From: Pseudomonas lini
GTDB taxonomy: Bacteria; Pseudomonadota; Gammaproteobacteria; Pseudomonadales; Pseudomonadaceae
Direction of reading: 5' to 3'
DNA length: 64,000 nucleotides
Assembly: GCF_964063345.1 (NCBI RefSeq)
Contig: NZ_OZ061318.1
Coordinates: 5,146,001 to 5,210,000 of the forward strand
Shown: piece after piece, positions 5,818 to 44,202 of the stretch
How positions within the stretch are numbered: position 1 is the first letter of the stretch
Layout of the letters: every line of letters starts with the position of its first letter
Position numbers and translations under genes: made by a program
The notes under the pieces: generated by a model
Seen by the model: the letters and a program-made list of their open reading frames with translations, nothing else
Told to the model about the DNA's origin: nothing
The model's database searches: none

Positions 5818-5984
5818 GTGGCTCACCCTTATTATTGTGTTGTCAGGTTGTGGCTCTTTGATATCACTGCTGGCAGTGTGGCACAAGATTGGCGTCAGTT
5901 AATTGATCGACGGCAGTTATTCGCTCAGCGGCGACCCGGCTTTAATTGACGCTCCATCCCCAACCCTCTAACCTTCGCGGCTTG

Positions 5985-6195
5985 TTTCAGGTGCTCTGTG
6001 ACCTTGGTCGACAGAGTGAAACAGGGAAACCGGTGAGTGAATTTCTTCCAGCGAAGAATGATCACGATCCCGGCGCTGCCCCCGCAACGGTAAATGAGTG
6101 AAGACTGCGCCTTGAGCCACTGTGTCTAGTGCTGACATGGGAAGGCGCGCAATCAGGCGCAAGCCGCTCATGAGCCCGGAGACCGGCCTGATTCA
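5985..6195 (+). promoter_or_regulatory. Cobalamin (adenosylcobalamin) riboswitch
   Basis: The conserved blocks of the cobalamin riboswitch occur in order: CAGGTGCTC near 5988, GTGAAACAGGGAAACCGGTG near 6016-6035, CTGCCCCCGCAACGGTAA near 6076-6093, and the B12 box AGCCCGGAGACCGGCC at 6173-6188. It lies 91 bp before cobO, the first gene of the B12 operon, so expression should fall when cobalamin is plentiful. Edges are approximate. Confidence 0.95.
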
Positions 6196-6286
6196 TCCAA
6201 CGGCATCACGGTGGGCGATGCCAGGCTTCTTGCCGTCTATTCTTGTGCCTGCCCGCCGTTATCCAGCCTCAACGGAGAGCTCCCCC

Positions 6287-32950: not shown

Positions 32951-32971
32951 CAAAGACCTCCATCAATGGAT

Positions 32972-33021
32972 GGGGTCGTCCCCGGATTAATCACTCGATC
33001 GAGCCGCGAGGTCGTCCCCGC
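32972..33021 (-). promoter_or_regulatory. Guanidine-II (mini-ykkC) riboswitch
   Basis: On the minus strand two hairpins have ACGA loops: GCGGGG-ACGA-CCTCGC (33021-33006) and GGGG-ACGA-CCCC (32983-32972). Twin ACGR hairpins are the hallmark of mini-ykkC. A TCCAT/ATGGA hairpin (32970-32959) next to them overlaps the sugE ribosome binding site. Guanidine should turn on translation. Confidence 0.92.
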
Positions 33022-33069
33022 ATTGCGCCATAGAGTGCCCATCATTAATCCGAGGATCAAGTTTGCGGC

Positions 33070-35307: not shown

Positions 35308-35383
35308 GGGTGATTAGCTCAGCTGGGAGAGCGTCTGCCTTACAAGCAGAATGTCGGCGGTTCGATCCCGTCATCACCCACCA
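35308..35383 (+). tRNA. tRNA-Val (anticodon UAC), copy 1
   Basis: A 76-nt cloverleaf with acceptor stem GGGTGAT/ATCACCC, anticodon loop CTTACAA giving TAC, T loop GTTCGATCC and an encoded CCA end. Confidence 0.97.
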
Positions 35384-35401
35384 TTCGCTTTAGTGTTACG
35401 C

Positions 35402-35478
35402 GCAGCGGTAGTTCAGTCGGTTAGAATACCGGCCTGTCACGCCGGGGGTCGCGGGTTCGAGTCCCGTCCGCTGCGCCA
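35402..35478 (+). tRNA. tRNA-Asp (anticodon GUC), copy 1
   Basis: A 77-nt cloverleaf with acceptor GCAGCGG/CCGCTGC, anticodon GTC in CCTGTCACG, T loop GTTCGAGTC and encoded CCA. It follows tRNA-Val by 18 bp and is probably on the same transcript. Confidence 0.97.
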
Positions 35479-35665: not shown

Positions 35666-35741
35666 GGGTGATTAGCTCAGCTGGGAGAGCGTCTGCCTTA
35701 CAAGCAGAATGTCGGCGGTTCGATCCCGTCATCACCCACCA
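35666..35741 (+). tRNA. tRNA-Val (anticodon UAC), copy 2
   Basis: Identical in sequence to the copy at 35308, with TAC anticodon and encoded CCA. It is the first gene of the duplicated unit. Confidence 0.97.
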
Positions 35742-35760
35742 CTTACTTTCAACGCTACGC

Positions 35761-35837
35761 GCAGCGGTAGTTCAGTCGGTTAGAATACCGGCCTGTCACG
35801 CCGGGGGTCGCGGGTTCGAGTCCCGTCCGCTGCGCCA
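35761..35837 (+). tRNA. tRNA-Asp (anticodon GUC), copy 2
   Basis: Identical in sequence to the copy at 35402, with GTC anticodon and encoded CCA, 19 bp after tRNA-Val copy 2. Confidence 0.97.
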
Positions 35838-42120: not shown

Positions 42121-42312
42121 GCCTGCTTGTTGATTAATGGAGTGGCTATTAAGAGAATCGGCCTACATCCACATCATCCTTTCCTGACTTCTTTCCTGAT
42201 CGATCCCCCGCAAAGTCTCGCGCGTTTATTACCGGGCAGATCCATCGGAGATTTCCTTCAAGTTGTAGCGGTTTTCATGAACTGGTGCGAAATGCGCTCC
42301 ATCGATAGTCTT

Positions 42313-42546
42313 GGGGTTGTCACTGCAAATTCAGTGACAGGGCGTGGAAGCCCTTCTATCGTTAGGCGCATCAAGCGCCACCAGTTCGGCGTTTTTTATC
42401 GTCTGTGTTTTATGGTGGCTGTGCGCGGGGCGCTTTCGAGTGCGCCAGGTGCCTAACGTCCTGGTCTTCCACACCTGCGTACAGCCACCACCTATTGCGT
42501 GGAAGTGATTTCTGGCGGCTCCAATCCATACGTTAGGAGTCAAACA
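42313..42546 (+). promoter_or_regulatory. Structured leader RNA with a three-way junction and exchangeable pseudoknots
   Basis: By eye: hairpins at 42318-42339 (TGTCACTG), 42340-42353 (GGGC-GTGGAA-GCCC) and 42365-42379 (GGCGC), then AGCGCC/GGCGTT plus a T run at 42374-42397. A junction follows: P1 14 bp (42413-42426 with 42477-42490), P2 (42429-42433 with 42442-42446) and P3 (42447-42451 with 42472-42476). The P3 loop holds CCTAACG and CTTCCA, complementary to upstream GTGGAAG/CGTTAGG (42344, 42360) and to downstream GTGGAAG/CGTTAGG (42499, 42531). The last site overlaps AGGAG at 42535-42539 before the gene at 42547. I recall similar leaders before other small Pseudomonas genes but cannot verify it. 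Bases 42121-42312 show nothing else. Confidence 0.75.
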
Positions 42547-42879
42547 ATGACGGCTATTACCCCTGATCCACCCTACGAAAAACCAATTCCTCACCCCAAA
42601 AACCGCTTCATGGCGCTCACCAGCAACTGCAACGACATGCCCACGCTGTTCGTCCATACCCACGCGCCGCTCGATATTTTGACCGACGCTGCCAGCTATC
42701 GAATTCGTGCCGTCACCCAGGTGCTCGAAAACCTGTCCATGCGCGGCTCTGTCGAGTGCGACTCGATGATACTTAGCGACTTTGCCTTGCTCTGCGCCAT
42801 TCCACTGCGCGATGGGTGTGATGTGCTGGATGTGATTGGGCGACGGTTGCGGGCTCGGCCTTCGGGCGATGTCTCGTGA
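42547..42879 (+). CDS. Small DUF3077/DUF6124-like protein
   Basis: A 110-residue acidic protein without signal peptide. An N-terminal Pro-rich stretch (ITPDPPYEKPIPHPKNRF) precedes a helical segment with APLDILTDAASYRIRAVTQVLENLSM and DFALLCAIPLRDGCDVLDVIGRRL. This resembles the small Pseudomonas proteins labelled DUF3077 or DUF6124, of unknown function; I am only fairly sure. ATG 42547 has AGGAG 7 nt upstream, inside the structured leader. A REP pair and an IS follow. Confidence 0.72.
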   Translation: MTAITPDPPYEKPIPHPKNRFMALTSNCNDMPTLFVHTHAPLDILTDAASYRIRAVTQVLENLSMRGSVECDSMILSDFALLCAIPLRDGCDVLDVIGRRLRARPSGDVS

Positions 42880-42913
42880 CGGATTAGTCCTGGAAATTTG
42901 CGGCGACTGAGCG

Positions 42914-42998
42914 GGCCTCTTCGCGGGCAAGCCTCGCTCCCACAGGTTTGTGTCGTTTGTGAATATTGCGTACGACACAAAACCTGTGGGAGCGAGGC
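42914..42998. repeat. REP pair cut by an IS element
   Basis: The left unit GCCTCTTCGCGGGCAAGCCT is complete. The right unit stops after GTGGGAGCGAGGC where the IS terminal repeat TGATCTGG begins. Confidence 0.88.
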
Positions 42999-43063
42999 TG
43001 ATCTGGCCTAATAATTCCGGACACCTCTTAAGGGCGATATGATTTCGCCAATTTGGAGGTTCC

Positions 43064-44202
<1,139 letters not shown>

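Follow-up and report, generated by a model that had tools for sequence, protein, structure and literature searches.

A chromosomal C4 antisense RNA with paired address sites in Pseudomonas lini and its many differently addressed relatives

A C4 RNA flanked by complementary sites ahead of a small gene

We analysed a 64,000-nucleotide stretch of the Pseudomonas lini chromosome (the window), in which a gene at 42547-42879 (+), with its start codon at 42547, encodes a 110-amino-acid protein. This gene and its leader lie in a unit spanning 42247-42946 (+), with bounds set by blastn homology to a copy in another genome of the genus (L276) that stands behind the same neighbour gene and is 80% identical. 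Two further loci behind that neighbour gene, L273 and L274, match the upstream flank of the unit only as far as 42223 by blastn, and no C4 RNA was found within the 3.4 kb examined there; another, L275, holds a gutted relic. Behind the gene, 42925-43000 contains a palindromic GCCTCGCTCCCACAGG...CCTGTGGGAGCGAGGC repeat, for which Rfam gives microRNA-family matches that are all below the cutoffs of those families, and similar repeats also follow the L276 unit and the L275 relic. An IS3-type transposase pair (HTH_Tnp_1 and rve; 43064-44202) adjoins the unit. Elsewhere the window carries a cobalamin riboswitch (5972-6205, +; 99.8 bits), a guanidine-II riboswitch (mini-ykkC; 32971-33023, -; 37.6 bits against a cutoff of 32) and two tRNA pairs of equal scores about 358 bases apart (35308-35475 and 35666-35834), which suggest that a block of two tRNAs was duplicated in tandem.

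At the centre of the leader is a C4 antisense RNA (RF01695) at 42408-42495 (+), which scored 73.8 bits (E 1.6e-12) against a family cutoff of 45 and is also identified by its fold and by covariation. It folds into stems P1 (42413-42429 with 42474-42490), P2 (42430-42443) and P3 (42444-42465), all on the + strand. A 14-bp P1 stem at 42413-42426/42477-42490 had been proposed in an earlier note made from the letters of this DNA; it is present, and one fold extends it to 17 bp. The same note drew P3 as AGGTG/CACCT closing a 20-nt loop, a drawing that gives way to the family P3, CCGG/CCGG: over 45 copies from this genome the former pairs in 77.8% of cells versus 89.4% for the latter. With the family P3, the b' segment, CCTAACGT (42452-42459, +), sits in the loop and the a' segment, CTTCCAC (42466-42472, +), in the linker to P1, and the two loop motifs of the earlier note, CCTAACG and CTTCCA, are indeed found inside C4 at these positions, as CCTAACG(T) and CTTCCAC.

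The sites complementary to these segments are named after phage P1, with site a shortly 3' of C4 and site b over the Shine-Dalgarno sequence. Upstream of C4, a1 (GTGGAAG, 42344-42350) lies in the loop of a second hairpin (42340-42353, +), and b1 (CGTTAGGC; 42360-42367, +) follows, identified by its complementarity to C4. Downstream, a2 (GTGGAAG; 42499-42505, +) begins 9 nt behind the CCACC foot of the P1 stem, compared with 3 nt in phage P1, and b2 (ACGTTAGG; 42530-42537, +) overlaps the Shine-Dalgarno AGGAG (42535-42539). The earlier note had read these elements correctly: GTGGAAG at 42344 and 42499, CGTTAGG at 42360 and 42531, the upstream GTGGAA in a hairpin loop (stem GGGC/GCCC) and the overlap of the downstream CGTTAGG with AGGAG. 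Calculated site energies are -11.5 kcal/mol for b1, -9.8 for b2 and -8.9 for both a1 and a2. Three 7-mers of the loop are complementary to upstream and three to downstream sequence; two or more in both directions arose in 0 of 2000 dinucleotide shuffles of 42313-42546, and one or more in both directions in 6 of 2000. The fold of 42300-42560 was more stable than 200 of 200 shuffles (z -4.96).

Further upstream, a candidate promoter of the sigma-70 type (TGGTGC, 17 nt, TAGTCT; 42283-42311, +) was read from the sequence; a consensus promoter scan did not report it. Hairpin 1 (GTCACTG and CAGTGAC around CAAATT; 42319-42338, +) follows, recognized by its fold and within a stretch, 42319-42399, that resembles isrK (RF01394; 47.4 bits, cutoff 50). 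Positions 42305-42358 match c4-a1b1 (RF03163) at 39.9 bits, with a cutoff of 46.7. A terminator-like hairpin with a T-run (42373-42397, +) would mark the end of a short isrK-like RNA. The earlier note had called this terminator, which is present but weak by itself, one being found against a shuffle mean of 1.2.

A new kind of leader is ruled out, since Rfam places the leader in C4; the element is a variant in setting of the known C4 family and not new in kind. Indeed, it has the three-stem fold, a P3 loop that carries b', a linker between P3 and P1 that carries a', a'/b' complementary to a1/b1 upstream and to a2/b2 downstream, and b2 over the Shine-Dalgarno sequence. The earlier note, which described a switch of translation, rebuilt by eye almost the entire C4 layout. 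Its idea of competing pairings that expose or hide the Shine-Dalgarno region fits that layout, but its picture of a single, unclassified leader does not hold, and action in cis only is unlikely: the leader belongs to the C4 antisense family, of which 45 of 46 chromosomal matches pass the family cutoff, and has an IsrK-like stretch in front.

Known systems resemble the window to different degrees. Phage P1 (AF234172) has the same annotated order as the window (a1, b1, C4, a2, b2, icd), and the C4 of phages P1 and P7 (c4-icd-ant, immI) likewise has b2 over the Shine-Dalgarno sequence and the same fold. Spacings, measured between starts, are close for a1 and b1 (14 in P1, 16 in the window), for a2 and b2 (29 and 31) and for b2 and the start codon (18 and 17); the first GG of C4 lies 74 nt after b1 in P1 and 54 nt after it in the window. 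In P1 the annotated a1, a2 and b2 are complementary to its C4, and the 8-nt b1 only by its first 7 nt. Unlike P1 and P7, the present genome has 46 dispersed chromosomal C4 matches, and the usual target is a single small DUF6124 or unclassified gene rather than icd plus an antirepressor, except that 2 of the 46 copies precede a Bro-N gene. Behind the window C4 itself, an icd-like leader peptide and an antirepressor are absent; the 110-aa gene is followed by the transposase pair.

In Gifsy-1, the IsrK-orf45-anrP region is described as a promoter, a short terminated RNA and read-through into a stable RNA (STnc1160) and a translationally silent mRNA (PMC4825925), and putative counterparts of these parts can be read in the window sequence. 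STnc1160 may be the counterpart of C4, a link that we draw here and that is not taken from that description. Unlike Gifsy-1, the window has an isrK match just under the cutoff and neither antQ nor an antirepressor among the ten neighbours scanned. The Group 1 sRNAs of Acinetobacter baumannii, compared by their published description, likewise comprise many C4-type RNAs (21) in one genome, with a variable a' loop, and were reported in 2016 as abundant and apparently processed (PMC5320573). Their targets are left open in that description, whereas here C4s have a cognate adjacent gene. The CI RNA of phage P4, with seqA and seqC, is also described as an antisense RNA between upstream and downstream complementary sites (PMC4825925); unlike C4 it acts by transcription termination, and on this description we set it apart.

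Individually addressed C4 units across the chromosome

The 6.58-Mb genome contains at least 46 C4 matches, 45 of them above the family cutoff; 150 of 1724 first-look candidates were scored, and more copies may exist. In 44 of the 46 an ATG follows C4 after 44-56 nt (about 50), and in L030 and L065 a gene at the standard spacing is absent. Matched by position, DUF6124 genes stand behind 33 of the 46 C4s. The window's own family stands behind five, namely the window unit (L041) and L022, L034, L063 and L064, whose proteins are 56-92% identical to the window protein. The remaining genes are Bro-N in two cases (L024, L061), DUF3077 in one (L025) and unclassified in a pair (L028, L039) and a single (L062). 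Some DUF6124 genes can do without C4: of the 39 in this genome, six lack a C4 match, and three of these six keep a c4-a1b1-like stretch below the family cutoff. The rest of the leader also recurs: of the 46 loci, 43 have GTCRC, the start of hairpin 1, 45 show a1 in the loop of a hairpin, and 21 have a T-run before C4, versus 8 of 46 for a control stretch. At the promoter place, TTG-N16-19-TA...T (or GTAACT) occurs in 36 of 46 loci and in 6% of mononucleotide shuffles, a pattern picked after inspection that leaves the window copy, with its TGG, outside the 36. Damaged copies comprise L030, lacking its gene, L065, at 40 bits, and L055, whose frame is broken. About 45 RNA switches, separate from one another, thus seem to be present in a single genome.

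Covariation was assessed on 45 of the 46 copies, with L065 left out. The C4 structure pairs in 96.8% of cells, 15 of 25 stem pairs are changed on both sides, and the observed covariation score was reached by 0 of 500 shuffles. The contacts between loops and targets also co-vary, across 44 paralogues and 68 distinct leaders of related loci. The earlier note had set covariation beforehand as one of the tests that could refute it, and stems and contacts alike bear it out.

We then asked how well each C4 fits its own gene, taking the longest exact complement between the C4 loop and each site in its own unit and in the other 43; this and the other address tests within the genome used the 44 loci with an ATG at the standard spacing. 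Summed over these loci, own complementarity exceeded all 10,000 reassignments at each of the four sites (own sum against reassignment maximum: b2, 315 vs 202; a2, 314 vs 201; b1, 285 vs 211; a1, 312 vs 224). The own gene was strictly best in 39 of 44 cases with both mRNA sites together and in 43 of 44 with all four sites. No b loop occurs twice among the 44 units, and neither does any combination of b loop and a segment; the a segments come in 26 forms. In the 68 distinct leaders of related loci own pairing exceeded 5000 shuffles.

Judged by RNAduplex, single sites are not clean codes: a C4 paired best with the target of its own unit in no more than 20 of 44 cases for b2, 15 of 44 for a2 and 19 of 44 for b1; these duplexes allowed G-U pairs and bulges and included bases of the P3 stem. 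What tells the targets apart is strict runs of complementarity and the combination of the two sites. The match of b' to the Shine-Dalgarno site was no better than that of shuffled loops at p 0.05 in 12 of 44 loci, with 3 nt in L034, and all four sites reach at least 6 nt in only 24 of 44 units, although a1 and a2 do so in 44 of 44. Therefore, the address code is real in aggregate and as a two-part code and is weak in some units.

The window protein itself has no Pfam match at E 0.001 or E 0.1 and no NCBIfam match at E 0.1, so the earlier label "DUF3077-like" (PF11275) was dropped; the true DUF3077 match is the gene of L025. DUF6124 (PF19619) was likewise rejected, with no Pfam match and a profile-comparison probability of 0.7% against our own DUF6124 alignment. 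Among the best 79 of 135 loci with relatives of the window gene, all in Pseudomonas records, C4 stands in front in 76; it was not seen in L134, L168 and L171, of which L168 ends at a contig end. Structure models gave mainly a two-helix hairpin for the window family (pLDDT 81.8) and three helices for DUF6124 (pLDDT 76.9), and fold comparison returned no PDB match with E <= 0.001 for either. PHROGs and PADLOC gave nothing for the window protein or for the DUF6124 protein tried. The window protein had no match in 50,697 phage records; the DUF6124 protein had one there, at the edge of EU982300, and none among 72,556 records of plasmids. On these searches we rejected the idea that phages or plasmids carry the units, although stretches in IMG/VR encode DUF6124. 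Open-licence literature yielded no paper on DUF6124.

Occurrence in related bacteria and in viral contigs

C4 has been reported from Proteobacteria and phages, and c4-a1b1 from gamma-Proteobacteria and phages (Weinberg et al. 2010; PMC2864571); the C4 fold has been modelled (PMC4666395), and for Burkholderia cenocepacia a published table puts isrK and C4 into a single transcriptional unit (PMC4603805). In open-licence literature no title dealt with a family of self-addressed C4 RNAs in Pseudomonas, which is not proof of absence.

Of 119 genomes from the window's genus, 110 contain C4; copy numbers range from 1 to at least 33, and 17 genomes, the present one included, have at least 33. C4 was also found in at least 29 of 194 genomes of the order, with 1 to at least 14 copies outside the genus, and in at least 12 of 229 genomes of the class. 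A search of 59 genomes of the family found DUF6124 in three, each of which is one of the five from the window's genus. Both a2 and the Shine-Dalgarno-side b2 reach at least 6 nt in 25 of 32 further loci of the order, 31 of which lie outside the genus. Behind C4 in these 31, 14 genes are of types that, by eye, we take to be antirepressor-like (Bro-N, KilA-N, Rha or AntA). For example, one genome of another genus of the family (G391) has at least 14 C4 matches and no DUF6124 (loci L299 and L316-L321); five of the seven genes looked at there resemble Bro-N by eye, so C4 multiplication seems to have occurred with another target gene as well. By the run test, a cognate b2 is lacking in four of those seven loci.

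Viral contigs contain 51 stretches that match the C4 pattern. In IMG/VR, 38 stretches encode DUF6124, with C4 in front in 38 of 38, which places some units in or beside prophages. L214 has the near-classical order of C4, a peptide of ~52-56 aa and a Bro-N gene, and L205 is similar, with a 68-aa frame in between and a peptide that belongs to no Pfam family. A Bro-N query of viral contigs gave no match, its patterns probably being too strict. The simplest history would be that of a phage immunity module in which the antirepressor was replaced and the unit later spread in the chromosome. On two viral contigs (L242 and L240), two C4s stand in tandem about 350 bases apart before one DUF6124 gene, and by the run test the first of them lacks a cognate site downstream. 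In L234, L235, L243, L244 and L246-L251 the DUF6124 C4 is preceded by another C4-like fold, which is weaker (42-57 bits) and has no complementary sites nearby. A genome with a C4 unit also has a type II hammerhead ribozyme match (L308:2834-2896, -; 64.6 bits).

Proposed mechanism, alternatives and divergence of the codes

We consider it probable that the window holds a stand-alone chromosomal C4 antisense unit, one of many with a code of their own, in which a short RNA competes for C4. One transcript would start at the promoter just upstream of the isrK-like stretch, and most transcription would end at the 42373-42397 terminator, giving a short IsrK-like RNA that carries a1 and b1. Read-through would produce C4 plus the mRNA. 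C4 would then be cut out as in phage P1, to a length of about 77 nt, and its a'/b' would pair with a2/b2, hiding the Shine-Dalgarno sequence of the gene behind. The short RNA, with sites equal or stronger, would titrate C4 so that the gene is translated; the near-equal site strengths on both sides suit such competition. With about 45 units, each with its own a/b code, each C4 would mainly find its own gene. Transcription is predicted here from the DNA, and RNase P processing, repression and titration are modelled on P1 and Gifsy-1. In phage P1, RNase P is reported to release C4 from a longer precursor (PMC5320573), and C4 is reported to repress Ant protein synthesis in trans (PMC8546580). In Gifsy-1, the short IsrK RNA is reported to switch on translation of its own read-through mRNA, with a 114- to 171-fold effect for the wild-type translation fusion (PMC4825925). 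That effect is ascribed to IsrK pairing with the orf45 mRNA, and co-expression of STnc1160 gave more, not less, growth arrest (PMC4825925), so titration of a C4 is not established in Gifsy-1 either.

Could the leader instead stay unprocessed, with C4 forming mutually exclusive pseudoknots with one or the other set of sites on its own molecule, as the earlier note pictured it? All five segments do lie on one stretch, and the two sets of sites are of similar strength. Such a purely cis-acting switch seems unlikely, however: C4 of phage P1 acts in trans after RNase P cleavage (PMC5320573; PMC8546580), the GG at the 5' foot of the P1 stem, where processing starts in phage P1, is invariant in 45 of 45 copies, a terminator-like hairpin parts a1/b1 from C4, and a cis switch would need no per-locus codes, yet 44 of 44 differ. 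We regard it as very improbable that the units are decaying prophage remnants without function. L030, L065, L055 and the L275 relic are what decay would leave, but compensated addresses and covarying stems argue against it, as do the presence of C4 throughout most of the genus, often in many copies, and the fact that, besides the transposase pair, none of the ten neighbours scanned looks phage-derived.

A role as immune memory, in which chromosomal C4s mainly silence incoming phages with C4-type addresses and the adjacent genes are secondary, is one of two options proposed for the 21 Acinetobacter copies (PMC5320573). The b address of the window, ACGTTAGG, does occur in six distinct viral-contig targets, all with an a that differs from that of the window's unit. 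Moreover, 14 pairs of own C4s and viral targets match in both a and b, against 5.6 +/- 3.2 after re-pairing, with 41 of 2000 re-pairings as high; this is a weak test on 46 C4s and 74 distinct targets. The viral addresses come from 109 of 114 C4 matches (the five weakest, at 34-36 bits, left out), and three pairs of loci overlap on one contig (L190/L242, L198/L240 and L222/L257). We nevertheless find this reading improbable, because 12 of the 14 pairs involve targets of the DUF6124 type, which are probably homologous to these units, no viral target matches the window C4 over 7 nt at both sites, and 44 of 46 C4s have their own gene at the standard spacing.

Codes differ even between close relatives in this genome. 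We compared 43 loci (dropping the short frame of L055), among which 33 pairs, not independent of one another, have at least 80% gene identity. In these pairs likeness is 0.89 for the genes; for the promoter/hairpin-1 stretch it is 0.77, against 0.55 in 604 unrelated pairs. The b loop, at 0.55 vs 0.51, is hardly more alike than in unrelated pairs; the a1b1-terminator stretch (0.61 vs 0.55), the a2b2 stretch (0.64 vs 0.56) and C4 (0.74 vs 0.70) behave similarly, and the a segment is somewhat kept (0.74 vs 0.64). In 32 of 33 pairs the address stretches have diverged more than promoter and gene have; for C4 itself this is so in 22 of 33. For example, L023 and L037, about 4 kb apart, share 0.97 of the gene, 0.93-0.96 downstream and 0.88 of the promoter, and only 0.66 of C4 and 0.60 of a1b1. 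Since the nearest neighbour by gene is the nearest by C4 frame in only 8 of 43 loci, cores seem to be exchanged between units.

These patterns suggest a wider reading, for which we see even chances: a phage immunity RNA may have given rise to a genome-wide set of riboregulators insulated from one another, about 45 units with one code each, in which after duplication the a1b1-C4-a2b2 core is exchanged or changes fast, promoter and gene stay alike, and cross-silencing is avoided. If true, nature would have its own version of the orthogonal RNA switches that have been engineered, selection would act on the codes as a set, and about 45 natural codes per cell would let the coexistence of antisense switches without cross-talk be measured directly. 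The adjacent gene offers a testable target for 44 of 46 C4 copies, where the Acinetobacter targets were left open, and DUF6124 and the window's own family would both come under the same kind of control.

A rival to selection for insulation, though not to the C4 mechanism, is mere drift: the paralogues would have diverged long ago, with gene conversion keeping their coding parts alike. We hold this to be possible but somewhat doubtful. It draws on the same shuffling of segments by recombination, which alone could part gene from leader. Against it, address loops are identical in 102 of 1611 different-genome pairs at 70-85% gene identity, yet among 76 window-family loci of 46 assemblies the same b loop is found in 0 of 38 same-genome pairs versus 328 of 2812 different-genome pairs (Fisher p 0.009, pairs not independent). 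Addresses are held within a lineage and differ between copies in one cell, a pattern that we read as avoidance of cross-silencing, with selection against cross-talk as its presumed cause. Indeed, the L276 unit has the same address as the window with unit DNA only about 80% identical.
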